In this document: positions 26,111 to 46,439 of the stretch, piece by piece
Layout: each line of letters opens with the position of its first letter
Numbering within the stretch: the stretch's first letter is position 1
Source of the DNA: Nitrospirota bacterium
GTDB taxonomy: Bacteria; Nitrospirota; Thermodesulfovibrionia; UBA6902
Assembly: GCA_016234115.1 (NCBI GenBank)
Contig: JACRHD010000035.1
Span: forward strand, 1 to 64,000
Length of the DNA stretch: 64,000 nucleotides
Direction of reading: 5' to 3'
Program-made: the position numbers and the translations under genes
The notes under the pieces: model-generated
Database searches by the model: none
Told to the model about the DNA's origin: nothing
Seen by the model: the letters and a program-made list of their open reading frames with translations, nothing else

Positions 26111-27667
26111 ATGAAAAACATCAACAGACGAGACTTTCTTAAGTATTCAGGCGGAGGGCTTGCCGCCATTGTGATAGGCAGCCAGATGCCGGGACTTTCA
26201 AATCAGGCCCACGCTGCCGTCTCGGCGCTGGACATCACCATCACGGACACCATCAAGGAGATGGTGACCCACAACGCGATAAACACCGCGGAATGTTATT
26301 ACTGGGTTTTCAAGGAGGCGAGGCTCCCCGCGGATTGTCCGGGACCTATCATTTACGCCCACACCGGGGACACCGTCAATATCACGGTGCACAATACCCT
26401 GGATGAACCCCATGCGTTTTACATACCCGGGATGTTTGACAGCGGGCCGATTCAACCGGGTGACACCTTCATCGGAGCGTTTACGGCTACTAAAGGGGGA
26501 ACTCATTTGTACTACGACAACCTGAATGAACCGGTCAACCGGGTAATGGGGCTTCACGGCTGCCTCATAGTCCAGCCGCTGGTTCCTGTGGCAGGGCACA
26601 AGTTAACGCCCTATGACAATCCGACTGCTCAGGTGCAGTTGCTCTTTGACGAATTCGGCTCTGCCGCCCACTGGCCCGGCCTTGGGTGGGCAGATGAGAA
26701 TCCGGCCACGCTGACCACGGGCTCCAGGCAGGGCGTCTGGCTTCTGAGCCAGTCCAGCCCCAACCTTTTCGCTGAAGTAGGCGACTACCCGCCCGGCCAG
26801 GACTTTCCGGCTGAGGAATTCGTGCAGAGGTTCAGACGTGACGCGTTCAGCCACAACAGTCATGACCTGTCTATCGCCAGCGACATCCCCCAATACTTCA
26901 CCATGGGCGGACAGTCCGGGCACTTCTGTCACAATAATCCAGTTTCAGTCCCCATGGCGCGGGTGGGCGAGCCTTACTTGCTCCGTGTACTGAACGCCGG
27001 GCTGATGGCCCATTCCATGCATATACACTGCAACCACTTTTATATCCTGTCGGTGGACGGAGTGGTCCAGGGCGCACCAGTCGGCAATATCCCAAGCGGA
27101 GCGACCCTGCTGCGGCCCGGCCTTATATGGGTCGATACCTTCACGGCGAACCCATGGGGCGTCTCGTCTCACAAGTATGACCTTATTCTGCCCTTCATGC
27201 GGCCCCCGGATGTCCCCAATGTCAGGGGCATCGGACGAGGTGGATGCCCGGATGCCGGGAGCGCCACTATCGCAGGCGGAACTACATGGCCGCCGTATGA
27301 AGAATTTGACAGGGCCATGGGTAAGACTATCCTTGTGAGGCAGTCGCCGCTTTGCTATCCGGCCCACGACCATTCGGAGCCTTCACAGACTTCACAGGGA
27401 GGCAACTACAACTGCGGTGTGATAGGAGGACAATATATCATAGGCGACCTGAACGTTGCGCTGCCGACCTATCCCAACCCCTTCTTGGGAGGGAACCTTC
27501 CCCCTCAGACCTTCCCTATGGACGAAGACTTCGCGATGATGATATTCCGAGAGGACGGGACGATTACTTACGGGTGTAACGAGGCGGAGGTCAACGGCAT
27601 CCAGCAGGACTGCAGGGACTCGGGACTGCGTTCCCAGGACGACAGGCCCGACTTTCCACCGGTATAA
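26111..27667 (+). CDS. Multicopper oxidase subunit A1 (Tat-exported)
   Basis: A 518-aa cupredoxin-fold protein with a twin-arginine signal (NRRDFLKYSGGG, cleavage after AHA near residue 35). Copper-ligand-like motifs are HSMHIHCNHF at 301-310 (the HxxHxH of the last MCO domain) and CYPAHDHSEP at 415-424. The first-domain HxHG pair expected in a full laccase is absent; the corresponding region reads HAFYIPGMFDSG and LYYDNLNEPVNRVMGLHG. The missing motifs are in the next gene, 37 bp downstream. It likely oxidises a metal or organic substrate outside the inner membrane. The start follows GGAGGAGG. It is the first gene of the A-B-A-B array. Confidence 0.85.
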   Translation: MKNINRRDFLKYSGGGLAAIVIGSQMPGLSNQAHAAVSALDITITDTIKEMVTHNAINTAECYYWVFKEARLPADCPGPIIYAHTGDTVNITVHNTLDEPHAFYIPGMFDSGPIQPGDTFIGAFTATKGGTHLYYDNLNEPVNRVMGLHGCLIVQPLVPVAGHKLTPYDNPTAQVQLLFDEFGSAAHWPGLGWADENPATLTTGSRQGVWLLSQSSPNLFAEVGDYPPGQDFPAEEFVQRFRRDAFSHNSHDLSIASDIPQYFTMGGQSGHFCHNNPVSVPMARVGEPYLLRVLNAGLMAHSMHIHCNHFYILSVDGVVQGAPVGNIPSGATLLRPGLIWVDTFTANPWGVSSHKYDLILPFMRPPDVPNVRGIGRGGCPDAGSATIAGGTTWPPYEEFDRAMGKTILVRQSPLCYPAHDHSEPSQTSQGGNYNCGVIGGQYIIGDLNVALPTYPNPFLGGNLPPQTFPMDEDFAMMIFREDGTITYGCNEAEVNGIQQDCRDSGLRSQDDRPDFPPV

Positions 27668-27704: not shown

Positions 27705-29951
27705 ATGTCATTCACAAATCCAGCAAACAGGACCTTGAGAAGGAGTGTTGCGGGCATGGAGGGTATGCACAGCAAGATGTTCGACCCCCCGACCGAGAGC
27801 CCGACAACACCTGAAGAGATGATACCGACCAACCCGGTGCCTGAGGTCATGGCAGCGGCAGGTCTTTTAGGCGTAAACCCTCCCACCGTCCCGAATACGG
27901 TGCAGCGACAGCTCATGCACGGGATGAAGCTGCCCACGTGGGACGGTCAGGATATGGAATTCTTTGTCTTCCGGGACACAGACGGCATCGATAACGGATT
28001 AGACGCCATAAATCCGGGGCAGCCTCAATTTAACCCCAAGCAGGGCAGTTTCCCCGCGCCCATCATCCGTGTGCCGCGCGGGTGCATCTATCATTGCGAA
28101 ACAGAGGGCAGCGGACCACCGCCGCATACCATACACTGGCACGGGCAGGAGCCGACGCCCATGAACGACGGTGTCGGTCACTGCTCCATGGAGCTGGGCC
28201 ACTATACTTATCAATGGCAGCCCAACTTTATAGGCAGCTATTTTTACCACTGCCACAGGAACACGATGCAGCACTTCGAGTTCGGATTGTACGGCTTTAC
28301 CATCATCGACCCGCCGGACGCTTTTTTCGCATCCATCGACTCAGTCAATCCTGATGGCTCCGTCAACCTCAATGATATTCCTATCGGCGCGGGACGGGAT
28401 GGTAAGCGCAGGGCACAGGCCAACCTTGCGGCGTTTCCACAGTTCGGACAGGACAACTTTAACCCTATTGATTCGCCGGACCCTGAGGCTGATAATTCCA
28501 ATCTCCCTGACTCGCTGAAGTTCGCCACGGACCCGCATGCCTATACCGTGCCTTATGACGTTGAAGCCCTCTGGGTCCCCGATGACCGCGACATCACTTG
28601 GTCGAACCTTGCATCAAATGCAAGGGCCACCTTCCCTGCGGAAGGAAGCCTCCCAGGGGTAAACGACAATTTCTACGGCAACGCAGGCGGCAGCGCCGGA
28701 CCCAATGATTTCTTCGCCTTCAACGACTTCCGCTCCACACACTTTTGCATCACCGGCGTTCCTGTGCCGGATGATTCAGGCGTGCTGCGGATACCGGGGG
28801 CAGGTCAATTACCCTCCGGGCTTCTTGTGCCGCCGGAGATGATGAGCGGCGTTTCAGGAGTTCAGGTCTCTATCAATGCCCAGGTAAATCAGAATATCCT
28901 GCTCAGGATACTGTGCGCGGCTTACAATAACATCAGGGTGACCTTCCCCGTGGATATAGTAATCATCGCGTGGGACGGACGGGCGCTCGGGGTGCCGCCT
29001 TACGGCAATTACAATGCGCCGGTCCTCGTGCCCGCAGGCACGCCCATCGAGTGGAGCGTTGCAAGACGCTTTGATTGCATGATCAGATCGGAGACGCCGG
29101 TAAACAGCTTTGCCTCGGTGGAGTTCATAGACACACTCAGGCGCGACGTGAGGTTTACCGCCCGCATCCCTGTCAACATCTTCGTGCCTTCGACGATCTC
29201 AGGGAAAGTGACCAAACAGTCGGGCGCTCCGATGGCCGGAGTAACCATGACCCTGACCGGTCCTGTAAACGTAACGGTGACAACGGGGGCCGACGGCAAT
29301 TACAGCATGTCCGGGCTGCCTGCAGGGCATTACGTAGTCACTCCTTCCCTTGCCGGTTTTGTGTTCGCGCCGGCAAACATAAATGTCACACTTAACAGTG
29401 TTGACGTGATCGGGGCGGACTTTGTCGCAACACAGGTCGCTTTCGCTGTCTCGGGCGGGGTGACCAACAGGACAGGAGGGCCGGCTGCGGGAGTCACAAT
29501 CAACGCCATCGGTCCCGTTAACGCGACAACCGTGACGGACGCCTCGGGTAATTACAGCCTGGCCGGTCTGCCCAACGGACTCTATGAGATCATTCCTTCT
29601 TTAGCGGGTTTCAGGTTCACTCCGTTGAGCAGGGATGTGACCATAAATAACGCCGATGTGACCGGACAGAATTTCCTGGAGACACAGGTCGCCTTTGCGA
29701 TATCCGGCAGAGTGACCGACCGCTCAGGCAATGCGCTTCCGGGGGTCACCATGACCCTGATCGGCCCTGTAAGCAAGAAGGTGTCGACCGACGCCTCGGG
29801 CAATTACAGTATACCCGGTCTGACCAACGGACTCTATGAGGTCATCCCTTCTTTGGCCGGCTTCAGGTTCTCCCCGCTCAGCAGGGACGTGACCATAAAC
29901 AATGCCGACGCGACGGGAAGGAATTTCCGGGGGGCGAGCAGAACGAGATAA
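27705..29951 (+). CDS. Multicopper oxidase subunit B1 with C-terminal carboxypeptidase-regulatory-like repeats
   Basis: A 748-aa protein starting MSFTNPANRT with no signal peptide; AAAAAAGGAGAAAG before the ATG fixes the start. It has the first-domain MCO motifs HTIHWHG (141-147) and YHCHRNTMQHFEFGLYG (181-197). After the cupredoxin region, from about residue 497, come three CarboxypepD_reg-like beta-sandwich repeats of about 80 residues (ISGKVT...GLPAGHY type), ending in NFRGASRTR. With no signal of its own, it would need to be carried across the membrane with Tat-exported subunit A1. The C-terminal domain is of a kind found on surface proteins. Function as a split oxidase with A1 is inferred. 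Confidence 0.85.
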   Translation: MSFTNPANRTLRRSVAGMEGMHSKMFDPPTESPTTPEEMIPTNPVPEVMAAAGLLGVNPPTVPNTVQRQLMHGMKLPTWDGQDMEFFVFRDTDGIDNGLDAINPGQPQFNPKQGSFPAPIIRVPRGCIYHCETEGSGPPPHTIHWHGQEPTPMNDGVGHCSMELGHYTYQWQPNFIGSYFYHCHRNTMQHFEFGLYGFTIIDPPDAFFASIDSVNPDGSVNLNDIPIGAGRDGKRRAQANLAAFPQFGQDNFNPIDSPDPEADNSNLPDSLKFATDPHAYTVPYDVEALWVPDDRDITWSNLASNARATFPAEGSLPGVNDNFYGNAGGSAGPNDFFAFNDFRSTHFCITGVPVPDDSGVLRIPGAGQLPSGLLVPPEMMSGVSGVQVSINAQVNQNILLRILCAAYNNIRVTFPVDIVIIAWDGRALGVPPYGNYNAPVLVPAGTPIEWSVARRFDCMIRSETPVNSFASVEFIDTLRRDVRFTARIPVNIFVPSTISGKVTKQSGAPMAGVTMTLTGPVNVTVTTGADGNYSMSGLPAGHYVVTPSLAGFVFAPANINVTLNSVDVIGADFVATQVAFAVSGGVTNRTGGPAAGVTINAIGPVNATTVTDASGNYSLAGLPNGLYEIIPSLAGFRFTPLSRDVTINNADVTGQNFLETQVAFAISGRVTDRSGNALPGVTMTLIGPVSKKVSTDASGNYSIPGLTNGLYEVIPSLAGFRFSPLSRDVTINNADATGRNFRGASRTR

Positions 29952-30009
29952 GACGGCTCGGGGGAAGGGTCCGGAAAATAATTTCAACTCCTGATACCCT
30001 CCCTCTGAC

Positions 30010-30037
30010 TTGACATCCGAATCAAAAGTGCTATCCT
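30010..30037 (+). promoter_or_regulatory. Promoter of the second oxidase unit (TTGACAT-N12-TGNTA type)
   Basis: TTGACA, 16-bp spacer and TATCCT with an extended -10 TGC, about 68 bp before the ATG of A2. The layout TTGACAT-N12-TGNTANNCT is shared with the promoters at 40542 and 42821. Confidence 0.65.
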
Positions 30038-30105
30038 GATTTCTAAGTAGTATTACTTTTTTCTTATCGTGCTAACTCTGTGGATTAGAAATCGGGGAGG
30101 AGACT

Positions 30106-31548
30106 ATGAACAATGAAATTAACAGAAGAGATTTTCTGAAGTACGGCATCGGCGGGGTAGCGACCATTGTAGTCGGGAGCAAAATTCCGGGGTTCCTGAC
30201 AAGTGAGGCCCATGCCGCGGTCCAAACATTAAATGTCACGATAACCGATGCGATGAAGGGCATGGTGACTGATAACGCCATAAATCCGGCAAAGTGCTAC
30301 TTCTGGGTTTACAAGATGACCGCGGACGGAATAGATATCCCCGCCGATTGTCCGGGCCCCAACATCATTGCCACGCTTGGCGACACCGTTTCACTCAGCA
30401 TAACCAATGGCCTGGACGAGCCCCACGCCTTTCACGTGCCGGGCATGTTCGACAGCGGGCCCATCAATCCGGGGCAAACAGTTACAAGGAGCTTTACGGC
30501 AAACTTGTCGGGCGCCCATCTGTATTACGACAACCTGAACAGCCCGGTGAACAGGGTCATGGGTCTGCACGGCGCGTTGATCGTCATGCCGAAGTCGCCG
30601 AAGTCCGGGCATAAATTCACGCCGTACGACAACCCGACTCCACACGTACAGGCAATCTATGACGCCTTCGGCTCTACAGCGCACTGGCCGGGCCTTGCCT
30701 GGGAGGAGGGCGATCCGTTGACGAACACACCGCCGTTCCGCCAGTATGTATGGCTGACGCATCAGGCCAGCCCGAACCTGTTTGAGGAAGTGGGGGGCCT
30801 GCCGGCAGGAGTTATCTACGACCCGCAGCAGTTCATGAACGCCTTCCTGCGGGACCCGTTCAGCCCCGACCCCAACACCAACCGGATACCGCAGTTCTTC
30901 ACTATCAACGGGCAATGCGGCCACTTCTGCCACAACAATTGTTACATTACTCCCTCGGGCCGTGTAGGCGAACCGGTGGTAGTGCACATCCTGAATGCAG
31001 GGCTGTGGACGCATTCCATGCATCTTCATGCCAACCACATGTACGTCACCAGCGTCAACGACGTGGTGCAGACAAACCCGATATGGGTGGACGTATTCAC
31101 CGTGCATCCCATGGACAAGGTCGATTACACGATCCCGTTCATGAGACCGCCGGACCTTCCCAACGTAAGAGGCATAGGCAGGCCGGACACGCCCCTCACC
31201 AGCCTCAACGGCAGACCTGTGTGGCCGCCTACCGAGGAGTTTGACGTATTCATGCCCGCGCCGGGACAGGACCTCGGCAGAGACCTTAATGGAAATATTA
31301 TCGATCTCACGCAGCGGCAGTCGCCGTTATGCTATCCCATGCATGACCATTCGGAGCCGAGCCAGACTGCGCAGGGCGGCAATTACAACTGCGGACTGAT
31401 ATCCGGGATTTATTTTGTCGGCGACCGGAACACAGCGGGGTGGATGGACTTCCCGATGGAAGAGGACTTCAGGATGATGTACGGCACCGGCATCGACCGA
31501 GGTTGCCAACACACGGATTGGTCGGCGCGGCCGTCGAGGCATGAGTGA
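30106..31548 (+). CDS. Multicopper oxidase subunit A2 (Tat-exported)
   Basis: A 480-aa paralogue of A1. Twin-arginine signal NRRDFLKYGIGG with cleavage after AHA (about residue 37), HAFHVPGMFDSG, LYYDNLNSPVNRVMGLHG, the HxxHxH motif HSMHLHANHM and CYPMHDHSEPSQTAQGG. It is shorter than A1 mainly by lacking a segment after the HxxHxH motif. The start is preceded by GGGGAGGAG. It heads the second A-B unit and has its own promoter. Same inferred role as A1. Confidence 0.85.
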   Translation: MNNEINRRDFLKYGIGGVATIVVGSKIPGFLTSEAHAAVQTLNVTITDAMKGMVTDNAINPAKCYFWVYKMTADGIDIPADCPGPNIIATLGDTVSLSITNGLDEPHAFHVPGMFDSGPINPGQTVTRSFTANLSGAHLYYDNLNSPVNRVMGLHGALIVMPKSPKSGHKFTPYDNPTPHVQAIYDAFGSTAHWPGLAWEEGDPLTNTPPFRQYVWLTHQASPNLFEEVGGLPAGVIYDPQQFMNAFLRDPFSPDPNTNRIPQFFTINGQCGHFCHNNCYITPSGRVGEPVVVHILNAGLWTHSMHLHANHMYVTSVNDVVQTNPIWVDVFTVHPMDKVDYTIPFMRPPDLPNVRGIGRPDTPLTSLNGRPVWPPTEEFDVFMPAPGQDLGRDLNGNIIDLTQRQSPLCYPMHDHSEPSQTAQGGNYNCGLISGIYFVGDRNTAGWMDFPMEEDFRMMYGTGIDRGCQHTDWSARPSRHE

Positions 31549-31616
31549 AAAAAGAGGGCATAGGTCCTATACGACTTATATGACTTATATTATTTTCTAA
31601 GAAAGGAGAAACCAAG

Positions 31617-34076
31617 ATGTCATTCGCAAATCCAGCATACATAGTTCCCCGCCAGGATGTTGTCGGGATGGAAGGGATGCACAGCAAGATGTTCGACCCG
31701 CCGACGGAGAGCCCGGCTACGCCGGACCCATTGACGCCGACCAACCCGGTCCCGGAGGTAATGGCCGCGGCAGGTCATCAGGACTTCCCGAGCACGCCTC
31801 ATACGGTCCAGCGCGACCTCTTGCACGGCATGACCATGCTCACATGGGACGGGCAGAAGAACATGACGTTCTTTACCTTCAGGGACAAGGACAATCCGGC
31901 CACAGGCGATGGGAATTACCCGGCAGCCACTATACGCGTACCGAGAGGGGTAATTTTCCACGGCGAGACCAGCGCGCAGGGGCCCCCGCCGCACACTATC
32001 CACTGGCACGGCATCGAGCCGACCCCCATGAACGACGGTGTGGGGCACTGCTCCATGGAGTTAGGCCACTATACATATCAGTGGCAGCCTAATTTTATAG
32101 GGACATATTTCTGCCACTGCCACAGAAACACCATGCAGCATTTTGAATTCGGGCTGTTCGGACTGCTCCTCATTGAGCCGCCCGACGCCTACTTCTCATC
32201 CATAGGGTCTACGAACCCGGACGGGTCCGTCAATCTCAACAACATCCCTATCGGCCATTGCAGGGACGGCAAACGCAGGACAGCAGCCGGCCTTGCCGGC
32301 TTCCCGCAGTTCCCGGGATTTAATGCGAACCCGTTGGATACTCCTGATCCGCTTGGACAATATACGACTGATCCGCATGCCCATACTGTTCCTTATGACG
32401 TGGAAGCGTTATGGGTGCTTGACGACCGCGACTCCGTATGGAGCGACATGGCGCCTAATGCGAAGGCCACTTTCCCGAAACACGCTCATATCGATTTTGC
32501 GGACCCGCTGAACAGTTCCGAGACACCCGGCGTCGACGATAAATTTCATGAGAACCCCGGCGTCAACGGTTTCTTCGCCTTCAACGACTTCAACGCCGAT
32601 TACTGGTACATCACGGGCGTTCCGGTCCCCGGGCATAAGGGAGAAACCGCCGCCATTCCGGCCGGAATAGTCATTCCCCCTGAATTAAACAGCGGGGTAA
32701 CAGGGACGCAAATATCGATTGAAGCCAAAGTAGGGCAGACTATTCTCATCAGGTGCCTCGACGCCGCCTACAATTGCACGACGATTACATTCCCCGTGGA
32801 CGTCGTGATCATCGCGTGGGACGGGCGCGCGTTAGGCGTGCCGCCTTACGGGTATAACGAGGCGTACATGGTCCCGGCGAATACTCCCATTCACACGAGC
32901 ACCGCGCGGCGCTTTGACGCCCTCATCAGGACGACCCAGCCCATGAGCTCTTTCGCCACCGTGGAATTCATCAATACGCGCGGGCAGGTCCCGGGCTTCC
33001 CGGAGGATGTCCTCATGACCGCAAAAATCCCGATCAACGTCGCCGGGGGGTTCGCGATATCAGGCACAGTGAAAGAGCAGTCCGGCCTGGCAATCCCGGG
33101 AGCGATAATGAGCGTAACAGGGCCTGTGAACCAGACCTCGGTTGCGGACTCCTCGGGTAATTACAATATAAGCGGACTGGTTGACGGCAACTATACAGTG
33201 ACGCCTTCCCTGGCCGGTTATACCTTCACGCCCCCAAGCTGCGGCATAACAATAACTAACGCTGATGCTGCCGGGTGCGACTTTATCGGAACGCAGGCTG
33301 CCGCGACTTTTGCGATATCGGGAAGAATAACCGACCAGACAGGCGCGGCCCTCGCGGACGCTGTTATTACTCTGAGCGGACCGGTAAATGGGACCGCCGT
33401 CTCTGACGCAGCCGGTAATTACATCCTGAGCGGATTGACCGACGGCGTCTATACGGCAACGCCGTCCCTTACCGGCTATACGTTTGCGCCGACGGCAGGG
33501 AACGTGACCGTCAGCGGCGCCGATGTGACCGGACAAAACTTTTCGGGGACCCTTACACCCGTAGTTTTCACTATATCAGGCAGGGCGGTTGAGCGGACAG
33601 GCGATCCGTCCATAGGGACCACCCTTACCCTGATCGGGCCTGTAAACAGGACAACGAGCGTCGATACCACGGGTTTCTACAGCTTTGCCGGTCTGCCAAA
33701 CGGCAATTATGAGATCATACCTTCGCTTGCCGGTTGCAGGTTCTCTCCGCTGAGCAGGGATGTGACCATCAATAACAGAGACGTGTCCGGCCAGGACTTC
33801 GTGTGCACGAGGACCTCTTTCGCGATATCGGGCACAGTGACCGACAGGCTCGGCGCGCCCCTTTCCGGAGTCACGATCTCCGTATACGGGACCGCGACAA
33901 AGACAGCGGTGACGGACGCCGCAGGGTTTTACAGTGTCGCAGGGCTTTCACCGGGGGATTACGAGGTCATGCCTTCCCGCAGCGGCTACAGGTTTAGTCC
34001 GTTATCCAGGGACGTGTCCGTAAGGAATGCTGATATTACAGGCAGAAATTTCAGAGGCGTCAGCAGGACGAGATAA
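31617..34076 (+). CDS. Multicopper oxidase subunit B2 with four C-terminal repeats
   Basis: An 819-aa paralogue of B1, again without a signal peptide (MSFANPAYIV, strong AAAGGAGA before the ATG). Motifs HTIHWHGIEPTPMNDGVGHC and FCHCHRNTMQHFEFGLFG are retained. From about residue 479 it carries four CarboxypepD_reg-like repeats, one more than B1, and ends NFRGVSRTR. The shared GMEGMHSKMFDPPTESP segment near the N-terminus is nearly identical in B1 and B2. It probably pairs with A2. The repeat number difference indicates expansion by recombination. Confidence 0.85.
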   Translation: MSFANPAYIVPRQDVVGMEGMHSKMFDPPTESPATPDPLTPTNPVPEVMAAAGHQDFPSTPHTVQRDLLHGMTMLTWDGQKNMTFFTFRDKDNPATGDGNYPAATIRVPRGVIFHGETSAQGPPPHTIHWHGIEPTPMNDGVGHCSMELGHYTYQWQPNFIGTYFCHCHRNTMQHFEFGLFGLLLIEPPDAYFSSIGSTNPDGSVNLNNIPIGHCRDGKRRTAAGLAGFPQFPGFNANPLDTPDPLGQYTTDPHAHTVPYDVEALWVLDDRDSVWSDMAPNAKATFPKHAHIDFADPLNSSETPGVDDKFHENPGVNGFFAFNDFNADYWYITGVPVPGHKGETAAIPAGIVIPPELNSGVTGTQISIEAKVGQTILIRCLDAAYNCTTITFPVDVVIIAWDGRALGVPPYGYNEAYMVPANTPIHTSTARRFDALIRTTQPMSSFATVEFINTRGQVPGFPEDVLMTAKIPINVAGGFAISGTVKEQSGLAIPGAIMSVTGPVNQTSVADSSGNYNISGLVDGNYTVTPSLAGYTFTPPSCGITITNADAAGCDFIGTQAAATFAISGRITDQTGAALADAVITLSGPVNGTAVSDAAGNYILSGLTDGVYTATPSLTGYTFAPTAGNVTVSGADVTGQNFSGTLTPVVFTISGRAVERTGDPSIGTTLTLIGPVNRTTSVDTTGFYSFAGLPNGNYEIIPSLAGCRFSPLSRDVTINNRDVSGQDFVCTRTSFAISGTVTDRLGAPLSGVTISVYGTATKTAVTDAAGFYSVAGLSPGDYEVMPSRSGYRFSPLSRDVSVRNADITGRNFRGVSRTR

Positions 34077-34080
34077 AAAT

Positions 34081-34163
34081 ACGGGGACCAGGGGGAAGGG
34101 GCCAGGGGGAAAATTGAATGTGCCCCCTTCCCTGACCACTGACCCCTGACCCTTGACCCTTGA
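34081..34163. repeat. Heptamer-built palindrome (CCAGGGG/ACCCTTG family)
   Basis: Left arm words CCAGGGG, GAAGGGG, CCAGGGG. Right arm words TTCCCTG, ACCACTG, ACCCCTG, ACCCTTG, ACCCTTG. Between B2 and the peroxidase-like gene. Confidence 0.8.
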
Positions 34164-34183
34164 TGCTCAAAAAGGAGATTACC

Positions 34184-37156
34184 ATGAGACGGAATTCTTC
34201 ATTCATATCGCAAGGGGCATTGTTGTTGTCGGCAATCGCCCTCATTTGCATAGCATCGGGGAGCGCGGCCTGGGGACAGATAATAGTGCCTCCGTTCGAT
34301 CTGCTCCCCCTTAACCAGTCGGCCATCCCTCAACCCCCGAACCTGTATCAATATGTCGAGAATGAGACCGTAGCTACCCAACTTGGAAAGGCCTTTTTCT
34401 GGGACATGCAGGTCGGCAGCGATGGAATAATGGCATGCGCCACCTGCCACTTTCACGCGGGCGCGGACAACAGGATGAAGAACTCGGTCAACCCGGGGAC
34501 CCGCGCCGGAGACACCACCTTTCAGGTGACCGGCCCTAACGGCACGCTCCTGCCGTCCGATTTCCCGTTTCATTTGCGTGGGGGGAGCGCTGAATTTCAG
34601 ACCGACCCCGTCATCCGGAACTTCAATGACGTTGTCGGCTCGCAGGGGGTGCGTCTCGCCGATTTTATAGACATCGTCCCCGGCTCTGCGGTTGACGACA
34701 TGGTCCCCGTTTATGATCCGGTATTCAATGTCAACGGAGTCAATACGCGGCGGGTGACTGCGCGCAATACACCGACTGTTATCAATGCCATCTTCAACTT
34801 CTATCAGTTCTGGGACGGACGGGCTCACTACATTTTTAATGGTGAAACCCCCTTCGGTCCCACTGACCCCAATGCCGGCGTGTGGTTCAATGACCCGGTC
34901 GAGGGACTCGTGAAGAAGCCGGTGCAACTGCTGTTCGGCAGCATAGCCTCCCAGGCAACGGGACCGCCGCTTGACGACATCGAGATGTCGGCAAGGGGTC
35001 GCACGTTCCCGCACTTGGGCAGAAAGTTGTTAAGCCTTGTGCCGCTGGGGAAGCAGGTCGTCAGCCACGACGACAGCTTGTTAGGCGGCCTCGCGCGCTC
35101 CGCGTTTATCCCCGGCGCGACAGGTCTTCATACCGGTTATGAGCAGTTGATAAAAGAAGCCTTTCATAATCACTTATGGGATTCCGACCAGCTTGTTACC
35201 ATGGCTCTGCCCAACGGCCGGACCGCGCAATTCACGCAGATGGAGGCGAACTTTGCCTTTTTCTGGGGGCTGGCTATCCAGTGGTACATGTCGACCCTGG
35301 TCTCGGACCAGACACCCTTCGACGAGTGGCTCGGCGGCAACAGCGCTGCCATGACCGATGAGCAGAAGCAGGGCTTTGCCCTGTTCAGCGGAATTGCCGG
35401 ATGTACGATTTGCCACGGAGGCATAGAACTGACCAATGCCTCGGTCGCAAACTCCGGATTTATCAATAATGACGTTCATTTCCTGATAGACCTGATGTTT
35501 GTCGCGGACGGCACGCAGGTCATTTACGATACGGGCTTTAACAACACCGCTGTGACCCCGACAACCGAGGATATCGCAAGGGGCGGGACCGCGCCGTTCA
35601 TCAACCCGCTGACGGGCCAGTTTTATCCGCTTTCAGTCTCGCACATGTCCGAGCTTTCCGCGAGCCATCTGCTGCCCTTCCCTGCGCCTATATTGCCACC
35701 CGGGGTCCCGGCGAACATGCAGCTCAACGCAAACGGCGCCTTTAAAGTCGCAGGCCTGCGGAACGTAGAGCTGACAGCTCCTTTTTTTCATAACGGCAGC
35801 ATTATGGATATGGACGATATGATGGACTTCCTGATCCGGGGTGGAAACTTCCCGTTGGAAAACATCCATGACCTGGACCCCGACATCGGCTCCGGGATAC
35901 CATTTATGGTTGGCAATGAGCCCATGGAGCACGCGATAATCGAATTCATGAAATCCCTTACCGACCCTCGTGTCATAATCCAGGCGGCGCCCTTCGACCA
36001 TCCGGAGCTCCTGGTCCCCGAAGGCGACCCGGAGGTGCTGCGCAGAATACCGGCCACGGATTCCAACGGGGTCCCTGTTCCCTCGCAGGTCCTCACGATC
36101 AACGCGTTCATTACCCCGACCATGTCCCCGGACCAGACCCTTTCCGGGACCGTGGAGGCCGGGCTGGTCCCTGAAGTCACGGTCAATACATCCGCCGCTG
36201 CCGGCCCTGTCGCCGTCAACGGCATTGAATGGAGCGTCCTTATCAGCAACATGCCTGCCGGGGTCAACGAGGTCACGGTAAGCGTCACGGACAACTCCGG
36301 CGTGCTGACGTCGCTGACGGACACGATTTACGTCATCCTCAACGACCCGCCTTCAATCACATCAGTCCCTGTTGTTGCCGTTGATGAGGGAGACAACTAC
36401 CTTTATCAGGTCTCCGCCTCCGACCCGAACGAGGGAGATGAGCTTGCGTTTTCGCTCGATACCGCGCCTGCGGACATGACAATCGACGGCGTTACAGGCC
36501 TGATCGAATGGCCGGTCCCCTTCTTCGGGCAGACCGGGACCCACCCGGTGTCCGTGCGCGTGACGGACGCGGGAGGCCTGTCCGCGACACAGACCTTCAG
36601 CATCACGGTCATGCCTCTGCTGCATGCCCCGGTCATTACCTCAAGCCCTGTGACTACGGCGTTGGCCGGACAGCTTTACGCCTACCAGGTGAAGGCCTCC
36701 GATCTCAACCCCGCTGATCTGCTGACGTACTCGTTCGACGCGTCGCCTTCCGGGATGACGATCAACAGCGCCACTGGACTGATACAGTGGACCCCGACCC
36801 TGTCTCAGGCCGTAACGCACCCGGTGTTCGTGCGTGTGACTGATTCAAGCGGATTGTTCTCTACCCAGAGCTTTACAATTTCCGTCGGCGTCAGCGCTTT
36901 CAGCAATATTTCGGGCACGGTGACGGACAGGAACAACGCGCCGATGCCGGGCGTTACCATGACCCTGATCGGCAAGGTAAACAAGACTGTCACGACGGAC
37001 CCGTCCGGCGGATACATATTTACGGGGCTGCCCATCGGCACTTATGAAGTCATCCCTTCGCGTACCGGTTACAGATTCAACCCCGTGAGCAAGGACGTGA
37101 CCATAAACGGCGTCAACAGGGTCCAGAATTTCAAGGGAGGGTCGAGATCGAGATAA
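34184..37156 (+). CDS. MauG/di-heme cytochrome c peroxidase-like protein with Ig-like and regulatory-like C-terminal domains
   Basis: A 990-aa exported protein with a Sec signal (RRNSSFISQGALLLSAIALI). Two c-type heme motifs, CATCH (85-89) and CTICH (about 412-416), with LGKAFFWDMQVGSDG before the first, place it in the bacterial cytochrome c peroxidase/MauG superfamily. From about residue 690 come two He_PIG/cadherin-like repeats and a final CarboxypepD_reg-like domain ending NFKGGSRSR. The start is set at the ATG preceded by AAAGGAGATTACC; an earlier in-frame ATG lies in the repeat. It may exchange electrons with, or modify, the oxidases upstream. The domain fusion is unusual for this superfamily. 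Confidence 0.88.
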   Translation: MRRNSSFISQGALLLSAIALICIASGSAAWGQIIVPPFDLLPLNQSAIPQPPNLYQYVENETVATQLGKAFFWDMQVGSDGIMACATCHFHAGADNRMKNSVNPGTRAGDTTFQVTGPNGTLLPSDFPFHLRGGSAEFQTDPVIRNFNDVVGSQGVRLADFIDIVPGSAVDDMVPVYDPVFNVNGVNTRRVTARNTPTVINAIFNFYQFWDGRAHYIFNGETPFGPTDPNAGVWFNDPVEGLVKKPVQLLFGSIASQATGPPLDDIEMSARGRTFPHLGRKLLSLVPLGKQVVSHDDSLLGGLARSAFIPGATGLHTGYEQLIKEAFHNHLWDSDQLVTMALPNGRTAQFTQMEANFAFFWGLAIQWYMSTLVSDQTPFDEWLGGNSAAMTDEQKQGFALFSGIAGCTICHGGIELTNASVANSGFINNDVHFLIDLMFVADGTQVIYDTGFNNTAVTPTTEDIARGGTAPFINPLTGQFYPLSVSHMSELSASHLLPFPAPILPPGVPANMQLNANGAFKVAGLRNVELTAPFFHNGSIMDMDDMMDFLIRGGNFPLENIHDLDPDIGSGIPFMVGNEPMEHAIIEFMKSLTDPRVIIQAAPFDHPELLVPEGDPEVLRRIPATDSNGVPVPSQVLTINAFITPTMSPDQTLSGTVEAGLVPEVTVNTSAAAGPVAVNGIEWSVLISNMPAGVNEVTVSVTDNSGVLTSLTDTIYVILNDPPSITSVPVVAVDEGDNYLYQVSASDPNEGDELAFSLDTAPADMTIDGVTGLIEWPVPFFGQTGTHPVSVRVTDAGGLSATQTFSITVMPLLHAPVITSSPVTTALAGQLYAYQVKASDLNPADLLTYSFDASPSGMTINSATGLIQWTPTLSQAVTHPVFVRVTDSSGLFSTQSFTISVGVSAFSNISGTVTDRNNAPMPGVTMTLIGKVNKTVTTDPSGGYIFTGLPIGTYEVIPSRTGYRFNPVSKDVTINGVNRVQNFKGGSRSR

Positions 37157-37238
37157 TGGACCGACTATAAATCAAACAATGCAAACGGCAGACAGATGAG
37201 AGGCATTTGTCTGCTGTCTTAAAAAAAGGAGAGCAGCC

Positions 37239-40200
37239 ATGAACCGTCAGAAGAATATATTACTATCACTATTGACGGTCTTTTTCGCACTGGCGCAAGC
37301 GTCCGTCTATGGAGCGCAGATGGCGCCGGTCAGCGGAGAGATCGAACAAATCTATATTAATAACGCCGGCGACCACTGGTCCGGCGGCGAGATAGTTGTG
37401 GGAGGACAGCACGTGATCCTTCCCCGCAATCTGCTTATCGACCTGCCCGCAAACAGGCTGACCCTGAAGCAGCTCTTCGATCAGGCGCCCGCGTCATGCG
37501 TGACCGCCGGTGAGAGCGGTCTCGCCAAGGGAGATTCATGCAACACAAGCGGCGCAGGCGGGATTGCGACCATATCCGCAAATATTACGAATAACGGCGA
37601 CGTCATCGCCGGCGACGTCCTGATCGACAAGGGCATAGAAGCGGTGACCGGACGCGTCAGCTATATCGACTACGCCGACGGTTACTTCCGCATCAACGGC
37701 ATACTGAACGACCCGACCACCGGGGTCATGGTGCGACTCAACGACCCCACGGGACGACATACCGTGCAGCAGGGATTGGGCTGCGCGGCGGGAGCGCCCA
37801 ATTGCAGCCCTGACCCGCGCTTCACCCTCGATCCGGACAATTACACCAATACCTTCAGCACCGGCTATCCGTTTTGTATACCGAGCACAACGCAGCGCGC
37901 CTTCACGGACGTGCTCCAATTAGGGACGACAACGGCCCAGGCCCTGGCCGACGGCACGGGCGACGTCCTGTGTCCGGTCACAAACAGGACCGTCAACGGC
38001 GGGGCGCCCGTAGATGATTCGAGACGCTTTGCGCCTGTCATGATCGGCGACAGCGTTACAGCCGAAGGCAATTTTGAGACAGTCAACGGCGTGCGGTTTT
38101 TGTCCACTCATACCATTATGGTGGGAACGGCGCTGACGACGAAGACCGATCCTGCCCAGCCGGATTATATCTTCCTTGCTGAGGTGGAAGTAGACGCGCC
38201 CGGCTTTCAGAACCAGCGCGTACGCACGCTCTTTATCGGCTTCGCAACTCTCGCCCCGGCAGACGTCCTCATCTGGTCGCTGCACCGGGATCCGGTCACA
38301 AACGAGGCGCATGAGTTCCCGCTGGCGACCGTAAGCGGATGTGATATAGCCGCGGGAGCGGGCACCTGCGGCAATCAGGGTATTGTGGGCGCCGGAGCTA
38401 ATATATGGAAAATCCGTCACGATGTAGACTTTATCCAGGGCGCAGATGCGAAGCTCGACCCCTGCGCCCATCTCAGGGCCGACGCGAGAATGGGCAGCGG
38501 CATATGCCCGCTGGGCGGTACCCCCGCCGAGATGTTCAGCGTCCTGAGCCCCATCCCCCATGAGATACAGGCAAGGACCGGACACAGCCTGGCAAACCCC
38601 GGACTCATTACAATCGACATTGCCGGCAATGAGGCGACCAACGGACAGTATCTCTTCCCGTTCGGAATGAACCTCGGCGGCGTCTCGACACCCGAGATGG
38701 TTGAGATCGACCTTAATGCGCTTGCCATTCCGTTCAGCTTCTCCGGGATACCGTGGAACCTTGACAGGCGTCTCTCTCCGGGCGGCTGCAATGGTCCCTG
38801 CGAAGCGGCCCCTCAGCCACTTGACCCGTTCCCGTTTGAAGGGCCCAACATGGACCCACGCACACTGGCAAGCGTGCCTCAAGGCGCTTATAACGACCCT
38901 AATTTTACGAACACCTCACTCACAAGGGCAAGCAACAGGATATTATCTTACGTAAGCGGAACGCCCTTTCAGGGAGGCAAATTCAATTTCGACGGCGACA
39001 ATACGCTCCTCGCATGGCCGCCTGCGGACCCGGCTGCCGTAGGAATAATACCCACGGTCCCGTTGACCTTCGCTTGCGGCGCGCCTGTTGTCAATCCCGA
39101 CGCCCCTCAGATCATTTCAACGCCTGTATCTTCAGCCTTGACGGGGCAGCTTTACAGTTACCAGGTGCTTGCTACGGACCCGAACCCCGGAGATACGATT
39201 TCATATTCGCTGGATGTATCTCCGGCTGGGATGACTATCAACAGCGCGACCGGATCGGTCCAGTGGACCCCCTCCGCGGCCCAGGCCGGAGTGAACCCTG
39301 TGACTGTTCGGGCGACAGACCAGGGCGGCCTGTTCGCAGCGCAAACCTTTACCGTGACCGTGGTTGTCCAGCAAAGCCCGCAGCCGCCGGTCATAACGTC
39401 CACACCTGTGACCACGGCAACAGCCGGACAGCTTTTTAACTACCAGGTGACCGCTTCCGATCCGAACCCCGGCGACACCCTGACGTACTCACTCGACGCG
39501 GCCCCTGCGGGAATGATAATCATCAGCTCAACGGGTCTGCTCCAGTGGGCCCCCCAGGCGGCGCATGCCGGGACACACCCGGTGACCGTACGGGTGACCG
39601 ACACGGCCGGACTCTTCGCGGTCCAGTCCTTCTCAGTTACAGTGCCCATAGTCCTGCACCCCCCTGCCTTCACTTCCATTCCCGTGACCTCGGTAGTAGT
39701 CGGGCTGCTCTATAGTTATCAGACGACCGCTGCTGATCCGAACGCGGCGGATGTCCTGACGTTCTCCCTGGACGCTGCTCCCCTGGGGATGACGATAAAC
39801 AATCTTACGGGACTGATAGAGTGGACCCCCGCGCTGGACCAGGTGGGCCCTCAGGTTGTAACGGCAAGGGTGACCGATGCAGGAGGATTGTTCGCAACAC
39901 AGAGTTTCAGCATTGCCGTGTCGCCACTTCTGCAGGCCCCGGTCATTACCTCAAATCCTGTAACTAATGCGATTGCGGGACAGCCTTATGCCTACCAGAT
40001 GACGGTTTCCGATCTCAACGCCACAGACGTGCCGACGTACTCGCTTGACGCGCCCGTGCCTGCCGGAATGACAATAAACAGCGTCACCGGATTGATCCAG
40101 TGGACCCCCACACTGGCGCAGACCGGCGCGCAGGCGGTGTTCGCGCGCGTTACCGATTCAGGCGGCCTGTTCTCCACACAATCGTATACCGTTACTGTCG

Positions 40201-40469
40201 GCATCAATGCGCTGAACAATATCTCAGGCACGGTGGTTGACAGGAACAACGCGGCCTTGTCAGGCGTCACCATGACCCTGATCGGTCCCGTCAACAGGAC
40301 TGTCACTACGACCGCATCCGGCGGATACATTTTTACAGGGCTGCCCATCGGCACTTATGAAATCATACCTTCTCTTACCGGTTACAGATTCAATCCGGTG
40401 AGCAAGGATGTGACCATAAACGGAGTCAGCATGATCCAGAATTTCAGAGGAGAATCAAGAACGAGGTAG
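37239..40469 (+). CDS. Large exported protein with four Ig-like repeats and the shared C-terminal domain
   Basis: A 1076-aa protein with a Sec signal (MNRQKNILLSLLTVFFALAQ). The N-terminal roughly 600 residues are rich in Gly, Asn and paired Cys and match no family I can name. Four He_PIG-type repeats of about 90 residues follow (pattern VITS-PVT-A-AGQLY-YQV). The final CarboxypepD_reg-like domain ends NFRGESRTR. RBS AAAAAAGGAG. Followed by a rho-independent terminator. Likely an extracellular or surface-attached partner of the oxidase/peroxidase proteins; function unknown. Confidence 0.85.
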   Translation: MNRQKNILLSLLTVFFALAQASVYGAQMAPVSGEIEQIYINNAGDHWSGGEIVVGGQHVILPRNLLIDLPANRLTLKQLFDQAPASCVTAGESGLAKGDSCNTSGAGGIATISANITNNGDVIAGDVLIDKGIEAVTGRVSYIDYADGYFRINGILNDPTTGVMVRLNDPTGRHTVQQGLGCAAGAPNCSPDPRFTLDPDNYTNTFSTGYPFCIPSTTQRAFTDVLQLGTTTAQALADGTGDVLCPVTNRTVNGGAPVDDSRRFAPVMIGDSVTAEGNFETVNGVRFLSTHTIMVGTALTTKTDPAQPDYIFLAEVEVDAPGFQNQRVRTLFIGFATLAPADVLIWSLHRDPVTNEAHEFPLATVSGCDIAAGAGTCGNQGIVGAGANIWKIRHDVDFIQGADAKLDPCAHLRADARMGSGICPLGGTPAEMFSVLSPIPHEIQARTGHSLANPGLITIDIAGNEATNGQYLFPFGMNLGGVSTPEMVEIDLNALAIPFSFSGIPWNLDRRLSPGGCNGPCEAAPQPLDPFPFEGPNMDPRTLASVPQGAYNDPNFTNTSLTRASNRILSYVSGTPFQGGKFNFDGDNTLLAWPPADPAAVGIIPTVPLTFACGAPVVNPDAPQIISTPVSSALTGQLYSYQVLATDPNPGDTISYSLDVSPAGMTINSATGSVQWTPSAAQAGVNPVTVRATDQGGLFAAQTFTVTVVVQQSPQPPVITSTPVTTATAGQLFNYQVTASDPNPGDTLTYSLDAAPAGMIIISSTGLLQWAPQAAHAGTHPVTVRVTDTAGLFAVQSFSVTVPIVLHPPAFTSIPVTSVVVGLLYSYQTTAADPNAADVLTFSLDAAPLGMTINNLTGLIEWTPALDQVGPQVVTARVTDAGGLFATQSFSIAVSPLLQAPVITSNPVTNAIAGQPYAYQMTVSDLNATDVPTYSLDAPVPAGMTINSVTGLIQWTPTLAQTGAQAVFARVTDSGGLFSTQSYTVTVGINALNNISGTVVDRNNAALSGVTMTLIGPVNRTVTTTASGGYIFTGLPIGTYEIIPSLTGYRFNPVSKDVTINGVSMIQNFRGESRTR

Positions 40470-40492
40470 AAGTCCGACAGATGCCTGCAAAA

Positions 40493-40523
40493 GGTCTGCG
40501 CCGCAGGGCGCAGGCCTTTTTTT
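40493..40523 (+). terminator. Rho-independent terminator
   Basis: Stem GGTCTGCGCC-gcag-GGCGCAGGCC followed by seven T. The same hairpin recurs at 42757-42788. Confidence 0.9.
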
Positions 40524-40541
40524 AAAAGTTAGCAGTTCCCA

Positions 40542-40569
40542 TTGACATGACTGGAAGAAGTGATAAGCT
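40542..40569 (+). promoter_or_regulatory. Promoter (TTGACAT-N12-TGATAAGCT)
   Basis: TTGACA, 16-bp spacer, -10 TAAGCT with extended TGA, about 92 bp before the next gene. It has the same layout as the promoters at 30010 and 42821. Confidence 0.6.
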
Positions 40570-40660
40570 TGAAAACAGGAAACAATAAAGCTCAAACAGG
40601 GCGAACTAAACCTGATAATCCACACGCGATATCTTTGTGGAGTTATAAAAAGGAGGAACC

Positions 40661-42733
40661 ATGTATCGACACAAAAAAATATTACTGACATTATTCATTG
40701 TCTTTTGCGCGTTAGCTCACATGGCAAATGCGCAGACAGTGGGACCTGTCGATCCTTCTAACGGATTTCCAGTGTACTACCAGGACCAGAGAGGACTTGC
40801 TCTTGCGCTTTGCCTCGATCCTGTCAACTGCGTGTTCGATCCTGTTAACCCCGTCTTTCCCTTTTCAGTGACAACCGGTTTCGGCGCCGAGGCCTTCTGG
40901 TGGGGCGCCGATGCAATAATACCGGCCGCGGATTGTCCCGCCTGCGTGCCGGCTGTTCTGGTCCTTGCACTGGAAGCCGCGTATGGCGGGTTCGGTGATC
41001 CGGTCGATGGGCAACAAGTTTCGTTCAGCCGGGTGAGGATACGCGTAGACGCCCCTGTTGCAGGGACCTATACGGTTACACATCCTTACGGTGTTGAGGT
41101 ATTTGATGTTGTGACCCCCGGGGTCAGATCGATCGACTTCACTAATGACGTCGGTATCGGAGCTCCGGGCACTTTCACGGGAGCCCTTGCCGGCCCGACC
41201 TTCCCGTTCCTTACGCAGGCGGTCCCGCCCCCGCCTCCGGGTTTTATCGGTAATGCATTAGGTGCGACCGTAACAGGCAGCCCCGACGGGACGAACTTTT
41301 TCCGTGTCGAGGGACCTCCCGGCTCGAACCTCGACGGACTGGGAAACAACGTCATGCAAACAAACCTTTTCAGCGTGCAGGGACAGATCTTCTCAGGCGT
41401 AGTGCCTATGCCGCTCACCGTGCAGCGCTCGACTTATGCCCGCGCCGCCGCCGGCGGGCAGGTTGATGTCTTTGCGACTTCGTCTCCCGCGGCCGCTGTT
41501 GACGTATCCGGCGGAGCGGTCTTTCCTGTAACTCCCCTTGCAGGCGATGCGGACGGTTTTTTCTTCGCTCATATTTCTCTGTCCGATGCGAGTGTCCTGC
41601 CCGCGACTGTCACCGTGACCGTAAATCGGGGCCTGCCGGACGAGGCGCAGGTCACGAAAAATCTCACGGACGTTGTTTTAATAACAAAGGCGGAGTATGA
41701 CACAACATTATCCAGTCTGATCGTCGAAGCTGCTTCGGGCGATCAGCTCGCTCCGCCGACCCTGACCGTTTCTGAATTTGCGCCGGGGACCATGACCCCG
41801 GTCGCAGGAAGCACGCTCAGCAGGCTTGTGGTCGGTGGTTTGATTGCGCCGCCTTATGCGGTCACTGTTACATCCTCGGCCGGCGGTCAGGACTCCGCGA
41901 ACGTTGCAATTGTCACGCAGATGCCTCCTGTCATCACCTCAGCGCCTGTAACCAGTGCCGCTGCGGAACAGCTTTACTCTTACCAGGTCACGGCTTCAGA
42001 CCCGAACCCCGGAGACGTTCTGTCATATTCTCTGACCGTATCGCCGGCGGGGATGACGGTCAACAGCGCGACGGGATTAATCCAGTGGACGCCCACGGCG
42101 GCGCAGCCCGGAATACACCCGGTGACCGTCAGTGTCGCCGACCCGTCGGGCTTGTCGGCAACACAGAGTTTTAACATTACAGTGCCGCTGCTGCTGCACG
42201 CCCCGGTCATCACCTCGACCCCGGTAACTACCGCACTCGCGGGACAGCTTTACACTTACCAGATGACCGCTACCGATCTCAACCCTGCAGACTCGCCGAC
42301 GTTCTCGCTTGACACGCCCGCGCCCGCCGGGATGACGATCAACAGCGCAACAGGGTTGATACAGTGGACCCCCACACTGTCGCAGACCGGCGCGCAGGCG
42401 GTGTTCGCACGCGTGACCGACTCGAGCGGCCTGTTCTCCACACAATCGTATACCGTTACCGTCGGCGTCAATGCGCTCAACAGTATTTCAGGCATAGTGA
42501 CGGACAGGAACAACGCGCCTATCCCAGGCGTCACCATCTCCCTGATCGGTCCCGTTAACAGTACTGTCACGACGGACGCATCCGGCGCATACATTTTTTC
42601 AGGGCTGCCCAACGGCACTTACGAAGTCATACCTTCGTTTACCGGTCTAAGATTCAATCCCGTAAGCAAGGACGTGACGATAAGCGGCGTCGGCAGGACC
42701 CAGAATTTCAGAGGAGAATCAAGAACAAGGTAG
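40661..42733 (+). CDS. Exported protein with two Ig-like repeats and the shared C-terminal domain
   Basis: A 690-aa protein with a Sec signal (MYRHKKILLTLFIVFCALAH, cleavage near ANA). An unassigned beta-rich N-terminal half includes SFSRVRIRVDAPVAGTYTVT and PYGVEVFDV. Two He_PIG-type repeats (about 418-600) and a CarboxypepD_reg-like domain ending NFRGESRTR complete it. The last roughly 500 bp are very similar to the 3' end of the preceding gene and include the same terminator. Ribosome binding site AAAAGGAGG. Function unknown; presumably part of the same surface system. Confidence 0.85.
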   Translation: MYRHKKILLTLFIVFCALAHMANAQTVGPVDPSNGFPVYYQDQRGLALALCLDPVNCVFDPVNPVFPFSVTTGFGAEAFWWGADAIIPAADCPACVPAVLVLALEAAYGGFGDPVDGQQVSFSRVRIRVDAPVAGTYTVTHPYGVEVFDVVTPGVRSIDFTNDVGIGAPGTFTGALAGPTFPFLTQAVPPPPPGFIGNALGATVTGSPDGTNFFRVEGPPGSNLDGLGNNVMQTNLFSVQGQIFSGVVPMPLTVQRSTYARAAAGGQVDVFATSSPAAAVDVSGGAVFPVTPLAGDADGFFFAHISLSDASVLPATVTVTVNRGLPDEAQVTKNLTDVVLITKAEYDTTLSSLIVEAASGDQLAPPTLTVSEFAPGTMTPVAGSTLSRLVVGGLIAPPYAVTVTSSAGGQDSANVAIVTQMPPVITSAPVTSAAAEQLYSYQVTASDPNPGDVLSYSLTVSPAGMTVNSATGLIQWTPTAAQPGIHPVTVSVADPSGLSATQSFNITVPLLLHAPVITSTPVTTALAGQLYTYQMTATDLNPADSPTFSLDTPAPAGMTINSATGLIQWTPTLSQTGAQAVFARVTDSSGLFSTQSYTVTVGVNALNSISGIVTDRNNAPIPGVTISLIGPVNSTVTTDASGAYIFSGLPNGTYEVIPSFTGLRFNPVSKDVTISGVGRTQNFRGESRTR

Positions 42734-42756
42734 AAGTGTAACGGATGTCGGAAAAA

Positions 42757-42788
42757 GGTCTGCGCCGCAGGGCGCAGGCCTTTTTTTT
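42757..42788 (+). terminator. Rho-independent terminator (duplicate)
   Basis: Stem GGTCTGCGCC-gcag-GGCGCAGGCC followed by eight T, identical in stem and loop to the terminator at 40493. Confidence 0.9.
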
Positions 42789-42905: not shown

Positions 42906-43376
42906 ATGAAAAATCTCTCTTACATAATAGCAATAACGGCATTGACGCTTTTACCGGTATTTAATGCCCCGGCATGGGCGGGTTCCGATATAAACAGCGG
43001 AGAAGTCCCGGTGACCGGCATCGATAACTCGGTGCAGGATGTCGTCAGTGACGCCTTGACGGTAGATGGAGACGAAGTTGCCGCAGCGGCGCAGTTCAAC
43101 AGCTCCGCGACCGCTACGGAAATAAACCTCGATGACAGCGCCTACATGGTCTCTGAGCCGGACCTCGAGCAGACCATCTCCGTTGTTCTGACAGGCACTG
43201 CTGATTCTTCAGGCGACGGCATAGATTTCAGCGATTCTCACCTGGATTCACACGTCGACAACAACGTAGGGTTGATAATGGTCAACAATGCCTCCGGGCA
43301 TTTCAACAATCAGGCGACCCAGAACAGTATCGTAGTAAACGTCATCGACGACGATGTCCTGGGCATCAGCCCGTAA
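42906..43376 (+). CDS. Exported Asn/Asp-rich protein, candidate fibre subunit
   Basis: A 156-aa protein with a Sec signal ending near PAWAG and an acidic, Asn/Asp/Ser-rich mature part. The segment VNNASGHFNNQATQNSIVVN resembles the Gly/Asn/Gln motifs of functional-amyloid repeats of the Fap type. No enzyme motif. It is first in a run with a C39 peptidase and a beta-barrel protein. RBS GGAAGGAGG. Assignment as amyloid-type subunit is an inference from composition and neighbours. Confidence 0.65.
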   Translation: MKNLSYIIAITALTLLPVFNAPAWAGSDINSGEVPVTGIDNSVQDVVSDALTVDGDEVAAAAQFNSSATATEINLDDSAYMVSEPDLEQTISVVLTGTADSSGDGIDFSDSHLDSHVDNNVGLIMVNNASGHFNNQATQNSIVVNVIDDDVLGISP

Positions 43377-43382
43377 GACTCA

Positions 43383-43475
43383 TTCCCCCTTTGATAAAGG
43401 GGGAGGAAGGGGGATTTTGAGATAAAGACATTTATCATAAAATCTCCCCTTCCCCTCTTTGCCAAAGAGGGGACT
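43383..43475. repeat. Compound palindromic repeat (CCCCTTTG family, copy 1)
   Basis: CCCCCTTTgataAAGGGGG, then AGGGGGATTTT, then AAAATCTCCCC, then CCCCTCTTTG-c-CAAAGAGGGG. The same element in longer form is at 58603-58720. Confidence 0.75.
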
Positions 43476-43487
43476 CATGTTTAAGCC

Positions 43488-44189: not shown

Positions 44190-44192
44190 GAA

Positions 44193-44290
44193 ACCCGTTT
44201 GAGCCGCTTGACGGCTTGAGCCGCTTGAGCCGCTTGAACCGCTTGAGGCGCTTGAGCCGTTTGAACAGTTTGAACGGCTTGAACGGTTAT
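44193..44290. repeat. Nonamer tandem repeat array
   Basis: Degenerate words GAGCCGCTT, GAACCGCTT, GAGGCGCTT, GAGCCGTTT, GAACAGTTT, GAACGGCTT follow each other at 9-nt steps (one 8-nt step). The array ends 20 bp before the next start codon. It is open in one plus-strand frame but there is no reason to think it is translated. Confidence 0.8.
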
Positions 44291-44311
44291 TTGAAAGGAA
44301 GTGAGATAGTT

Positions 44312-46428: not shown

Positions 46429-46439
46429 TCTTAACCCTC

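Follow-up and report, generated by a model that had tools for sequence, protein, structure and literature searches.

A transthyretin-like C-terminal domain with a basic tail, private to one redox operon of a Nitrospirota bacterium: putative co-assembly module or spacer

The window analysed here is a stretch of 64,000 nucleotides from contig JACRHD010000035.1 (assembly GCA_016234115.1) of a bacterium of the Nitrospirota, class Thermodesulfovibrionia, whose genome is 3.5 Mb and 97% complete. Between positions 26111 and 42733 lie seven co-directional genes on the plus strand, A0, B1, A1, B2, Px, Ig1 and Ig2, five of which encode proteins closed by the same C-terminal domain (CTD) and tail. A0 (26111–27667; PF07732, TIGR01409, with conserved His ligands) encodes one cupredoxin half of a putative split multicopper oxidase, carries a twin-arginine translocation (Tat) leader and has no CTD. 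A1 (30106–31548), the partner of B2, is a Tat-type cupredoxin half that also has no CTD. B1 (27705–29951) consists of the other cupredoxin half, without a signal peptide, and three CarboxypepD_reg repeats, while B2 (31617–34076) consists of a cupredoxin half and four such repeats. Px (34160–37156) combines a MauG-like di-heme peroxidase with He_PIG domains and the CTD (PF03150, PF05345, PF13620). Ig1 (37239–40469) and Ig2 (40661–42733) are exported proteins, in which Pfam profile matches place four and two He_PIG domains, respectively, ahead of the CTD and give no family assignment to the N-terminal parts that precede these repeats. An earlier reading made without database searches, hereafter the sequence-only reading, had begun the feature at 29880, which lies near the end of B1 and not at the start of the gene set at 26111.

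All five CTD-bearing proteins close with the consensus NF[RK]GxSR[TS]R. The termini given by the sequence-only reading are exact: NFRGASRTR in B1 (codons 29922–29948), NFRGVSRTR in B2 (34047–34073), NFKGGSRSR in Px (37127–37153), and NFRGESRTR in both Ig1 (40440–40466) and Ig2 (42704–42730), with the stop codon next each time. Its assignment of a CarboxypepD_reg-like domain to all five ends is borne out as well. Each tail is the end of a PF13620/PF13715 domain (CarboxypepD_reg/CarbopepD_reg_2), and these terminal CTDs lie at 29691–29951 in B1, 33816–34076 in B2, 36899–37156 in Px, 40212–40469 in Ig1, the domain modelled by AlphaFold, and 42476–42733 in Ig2. PF13620 matches in the five proteins score 42–147 bits against a gathering cut-off of 32.3. 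The last domains of B2, Px, Ig1 and Ig2 are 56–61% identical to that of B1, with 34 invariant columns across the five. B1 and B2 contain two or three further CarboxypepD_reg repeats internal to the protein; these retain the last strand but lack SR[TS]R and continue into linkers.

B1 and B2 are homologous over their whole length, with 66% identity across the cupredoxin part (~490 residues), and Px, Ig1 and Ig2 have their last ~290 residues in common, comprising two He_PIG domains and the CTD, with 74–84% DNA identity over 600–760 bp by blastn. On alignment, the five endings are therefore two lineages and not five independent cases. No similarity was found by blastn among the N-terminal parts of Px, Ig1 and Ig2. 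The earlier description of the N-terminal parts as unrelated holds for these three, although they share their C-terminal ~290 residues, but not for B1 and B2. The shared 3' cassette lies at 36403–37155 in Px (two He_PIG domains and the CTD; 74–78% identical to the Ig copies), at 39885–40523 in Ig1 (He_PIG, CTD, stop codon, and the stem and T-run behind it) and at 42149–42787 in Ig2 (including the stem and T-run). Homology between the Ig1 and Ig2 copies is 84% over 639 bp and extends beyond the stop codon into the stem and T-run, a terminator-like site. The pattern of identity marks the Px, Ig1 and Ig2 endings as a cassette spread by 3'-end copying.

Synonymous and nonsynonymous divergence (dS and dN) between the CTDs was estimated by the Nei-Gojobori method, with tail dN taken over the last nine codons. 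CTD dS is 1.26 for B1–B2, 0.79–2.18 for the B proteins versus Px and the Ig proteins, 0.43–0.49 for Px versus the Ig proteins, and 0.26 for Ig1–Ig2. For B1–B2 and for the B proteins versus Ig1 and Ig2, tail dN is 0.05–0.20 and dN of the whole CTD is 0.32–0.45; comparisons involving Px are weaker. The tail Ser codon is AGC in B1 and B2 and TCG or TCA in Px and the Ig proteins, and the Arg, Gly and Thr codons differ as well. In a neutral simulation, six identical residues were never reached in 20,000 trials for B1–B2, B1–Ig2 and B2–Ig1. As dS is high yet the tail residues are kept, beyond what the simulation produces, these sequence measures indicate that selection maintains the similarity of the tails and that, outside the Ig1–Ig2 pair, it does not stem from recent copying.

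The occurrence of the domain is narrow. A search of the complete sequence of this genome for F-x-G-x-S-R-[TS]-R-stop returned the five operon sites and one match with an in-frame stop; the common ending is not chance. When the looser G-x-S-R-[TS]-R-stop matches were checked codon by codon, only the five operon genes were real. A CTD profile matched protein ends in this genome only in the operon, with its other matches mainly being internal repeats of one 2,113-residue protein with a different end. That exported protein (contig 59, L109:3310-9651) has about 18 CarboxypepD_reg repeats and is encoded beside proteins with many CxxCH-type heme motifs. The sequence-only reading had suggested a search of related genomes for further bearers of the tail. 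In a phylum sample of 396 genomes (this one and 395 others, several of the same genus) only the five operon genes have it; the single other pattern match, NFQGASRWR in genome G288, falls in a trp/acc gene region and was graded chance. Nothing comparable was found by CTD profile in the nearest 40 relatives (41 genomes searched including this one), nor was there a true tail match in 251 genomes around the Chloroflexota relative or 118 around a deltaproteobacterial relative (369 in all). Pattern matches in G000 C46 and G417 were rejected upon codon-by-codon reading, which revealed stops inside, and one in G746 was rejected as it reads NFSGCWRRRW with no stop. Plasmid records held no match to the CTD, and a limited literature search found no described CTD of this kind and no described split multicopper oxidase. 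The CTD and its tail are private to this operon.

The A–B pair itself is widespread, occurring in Nitrospirota, deltaproteobacterial lineages and Chloroflexota. Orthologues of B1 (63–83% identity) stop at the cupredoxin part without a CTD, including an 83%-identical fragment in G362, a genome of the same class. The nearest relatives of B2, in Chloroflexota, have about two CarboxypepD_reg repeats, after which their ends are quite different. Orthologues of Px and Ig2 are likewise without the CTD, their C-terminal parts being Big_5, fn3-like, cadherin-like or a terminal hydrophobic helix instead. As the orthologues of B1, Px and Ig2 do without it, the CTD is by this comparison dispensable for the core proteins. 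In the trees, A0 and B1 group with CTD-less forms (support 95/96 for A0 and 100/99 for B1), and A1 groups with Chloroflexota forms (97/95), whose B proteins have such repeats and other ends. For B2, no fork of the B tree is starred, and the nearest row is Chloroflexota (76%). A tree of the repeats places the two final repeats of each B protein together with the CTDs of Px and the Ig proteins and separate from the proximal repeats, with support of 90/83 at a fork that is not starred. Since A0 and B1 fall with CTD-less forms and A1 and B2 are nearest to Chloroflexota forms with repeats, it is most likely that the repeats of B1 were acquired in this lineage, probably from B2. The two A–B pairs belong to different clades, A0–B1 with deltaproteobacterial and G362 forms and A1–B2 nearest to Chloroflexota, and so pairs with different histories have been brought together in this operon. 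Elsewhere in this genome (contig 47, L098), a second cluster has genes for A, B, Ig2-like and Px-like proteins, none with the CTD; its Px-like protein has a hydrophobic helix and basic residues at the end.

An AlphaFold model of the Ig1 CTD, for which this domain was input with nine related repeats, predicts an all-beta, transthyretin (TTR)-like beta-sandwich with a predicted local distance difference test score (pLDDT) of 91. The last strand of the model is formed by residues 84–88 (FRGES), and R-T-R comes after it. In this model the tail is mostly part of the fold, with F[RK]GxS as the last strand and R-[TS]-R as a short basic tip. The best solved structures matched by Foldseek/VIA are the TTR domains of carboxypeptidase D/N (Z about 12), SdrD B, UafA, CnaB2, pilin domains and an S-layer protein. 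Chain Y of the Kuenenia hydrazine dehydrogenase complex, which is described as an assembly factor of that complex, also matches the model (Z 11.6, 1.5 Å over 80 residues). This match may be a lead for a co-assembly role and is not evidence of one. A CnaB-type isopeptide bond was considered and rejected, as the five CTDs have no conserved first-strand Lys to pair with the invariant last-strand Asn.

The proteins that bear the domain appear to belong to one extracytoplasmic redox system. A0/A1 and B1/B2 are halves of a multicopper oxidase, with HxHG and HCH motifs in B and HxxHxH and C-x3-HxH motifs in A. Most of these His and Cys ligands are invariant in 14–15 orthologues from at least three phyla, and by this gene order the usual N-terminal copper motifs sit in the second gene, B. 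Together, A and B resemble a multicopper oxidase split over two genes. Px, Ig1 and Ig2 start with Sec-type leaders, as judged by eye. No signal peptide was found in B1, B2 or any of their orthologues, and the partner gene 5' of each B (A0, A1) encodes a Tat-type leader. As A has a Tat leader and B has none in any orthologue, B probably hitch-hikes on export. The sequence-only reading had called all five proteins exported, which stands for Px, Ig1 and Ig2 but not for B1 and B2, where no leader is visible in the sequence.

Several further features of the locus were recorded. The N-terminal part of Ig2 (40733–41900) is a domain of ~390 residues without a Pfam match that is conserved with the A–B–Px set in several phyla (33–44% identity); its structure model has a pLDDT of 32 and is too poor for use. 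Downstream of the operon, a cluster at 42906–45909 resembles a Fap/Fil amyloid or pilus system. A C39 peptidase in it matches FilB and also FapD, the latter at 136 bits and so below the cut-off of that model; small exported proteins and a putative outer-membrane protein are encoded on its flanks. Adjoining this on the minus strand (45904–53384) are genes for a SurA-like protein, for an Omp85 protein that bears several POTRA domains, and for a TamB protein, which make up a set for outer-membrane assembly like the translocation and assembly module (TAM).

The interpretation we tentatively favour, with a little less than even confidence, is that the CTD is the last CarboxypepD_reg/transthyretin-like repeat, copied among the genes of the operon, kept by selection, and serving as a putative co-assembly or tethering module. 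In this view the domain spread by 3'-end copying among adjacent genes of a single extracytoplasmic redox operon. It was added to proteins whose orthologues have none (B1, Px and Ig2), and the old copies retain the tail residues. B1 and B2 would cross into the periplasm in complex with A0 and A1, their partners with Tat leaders, and the rest would be exported via Sec. The common end on A0–B1, A1–B2, Px, Ig1 and Ig2 could then allow one partner surface to hold the set together. Candidates for this surface are the other CTD copies, the Ig-repeat proteins, or an acidic surface polymer touched by the basic tip. The CTD would not be a cleaved address tag. A number of points weigh against this proposal. 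CarboxypepD_reg-type domains are common as plain spacers, and part of the tail conservation may serve the fold alone. The Px tail is off consensus, with K for R and S for T, and is not clearly conserved relative to neutrality in two comparisons (P 0.05 and 0.18), in a simulation that ran with CTD dS and an assumed kappa. Furthermore, the tail is carried by one genome only, which leaves no comparative series for the tail itself.

The main rival is passive spread, which is nearly as likely as docking or tethering. Here an ordinary spacer or end-cap would have been multiplied by 3'-end duplication, with the tail kept only to complete the beta-sandwich and protect the C-terminus. This is consistent with the frequent use of CarboxypepD_reg repeats as spacers, with the additional internal copies in B1 and B2, and with the last strand making up most of the tail. 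The 3' cassette of Px, Ig1 and Ig2 also fits such duplication, as does the Ig1/Ig2 homology running past the stop into the terminator-like stem. However, SR[TS]R is missing from the internal repeats although they retain the strand, and the same end was gained by three protein lineages of the operon and not by unrelated exported proteins of the genome.

Readings in which the domain directs proteins to a destination fare less well. It is improbable, though conceivable, that the CTD is a lineage-private address of a new kind, in which the folded TTR-like domain and SR[TS]R tip would select the members of one extracellular split-multicopper-oxidase/peroxidase assembly, via an outer-membrane receptor or mutual docking, after being built onto proteins lacking it. 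A dedicated sorting machine is possible but unlikely. The sequence-only reading had proposed a shared sorting or anchoring signal comparable to PEP-CTERM or type IX; what survives of this is a shared module under selection (dS 0.8–2.2 with residues kept). A genome-wide or phylum-wide signal was rejected on the pattern searches (whole genome and the 396, 251 and 118 genomes) and the CTD profile in 41 genomes. No hydrophobic helix lies within the last 95 residues of the five proteins, none of them matches a CTERM model of NCBIfam (E 0.01), and the type IX tail family Por_Secre_tail (TIGR04183) has no match in the five proteins or the genome, while control genomes were positive. A general sorting signal is not supported, because there is no membrane helix, CTERM match or type IX tail family and the ending is found in one operon only. 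The PEP-CTERM or type IX kind is further disfavoured by orthologues without the CTD and by a tail that is mostly last strand.

We consider it quite unlikely that the CTD is a new type IX-like signal. In that case a machine of the outer membrane would recognise the folded beta-sandwich at the C-terminus, with its basic end, as happens for the KLIKK peptidases of Tannerella. Type IX cargo has a C-terminal strand with a conserved lysine, loss of two terminal residues blocks its export, and several Tannerella peptidases have the common end KLIKK (PMC11285876). The folded CTD, its conserved basic residue in the last strand and the basic C-terminus common to several extracellular proteins are in keeping with this. 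Against it are the absence of TIGR04183 from the genome with a working control, the confinement of the end to one operon, orthologues that are presumably exported without the CTD, and B1 and B2 being without Sec leaders. No type IX CTD is among the best Foldseek/VIA matches listed for the Ig1 CTD model. The SprA translocon (PF14349, TIGR04189) had no match in the genome, but the control genomes gave none either. Recent gene conversion in the locus, named in the sequence-only reading as an explanation that would undo its proposal, is highly improbable as the source of all five endings: the feature is confined to the locus, and the 84% identity of the 3' ends and the low CTD dS of Ig1 and Ig2 speak for conversion, which stands only for that pair and partly for Px, but the dS between B1 and B2 and between the B proteins and Px or the Ig proteins, together with the AGC versus TCN Ser codon classes and the differing Arg, Gly and Thr codons, refute it for the B proteins versus Px and the Ig proteins, whose copies are old.

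If the CTD is a docking or tethering module, the operon would be a natural experiment in how the members of a single extracellular enzyme assembly come to be marked in a bacterium, with the same end copied onto proteins that are unrelated. In that case it would also be a compact test case for telling sorting signals from assembly modules by comparative genomics, since a real signal should recur over the genome and this tail does not. Should the CTD be no more than a spacer, it would be an instructive false positive for C-terminal sorting-signal searches.

The CTD can be compared with several known systems. In common with the PEP-CTERM/exosortase, MYXO-CTERM, GlyGly-CTERM and LPXTG signals, it places a short, conserved stretch containing basic residues at the C-terminus of exported proteins. 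PEP-CTERM is composed of a motif, then a transmembrane helix, then a basic cluster (PMC1569441). Unlike signals of this type, the ending described here has no hydrophobic helix and no CTERM model match, and is found in five genes of one operon where such signals are spread over the genome on several unrelated exported proteins. The CTD resembles CarboxypepD_reg (PF13620, PF13715) in that all five copies pass the gathering score and the model has the TTR-like fold; as a difference, the last repeat here is always the protein end, bears the SR[TS]R tip and occurs on proteins of one operon. CnaB, SdrD B and Gram-positive pilin domains have the same fold and are the stalk or shaft units of surface proteins. 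The type IX CTDs of the KLIKK peptidases of Tannerella forsythia are likewise folded C-terminal beta-sandwiches on several different exported enzymes, and the basic end that they share lies within the last strand or just behind it (PMC11285876). They differ in that the best structural matches here are TTR- and CnaB-like, TIGR04183 is missing from the genome, and the domain is restricted to one operon of a different phylum. As regards a possible mode of action, the type IX CTD is the closest analogy, as a resemblance and not as membership.

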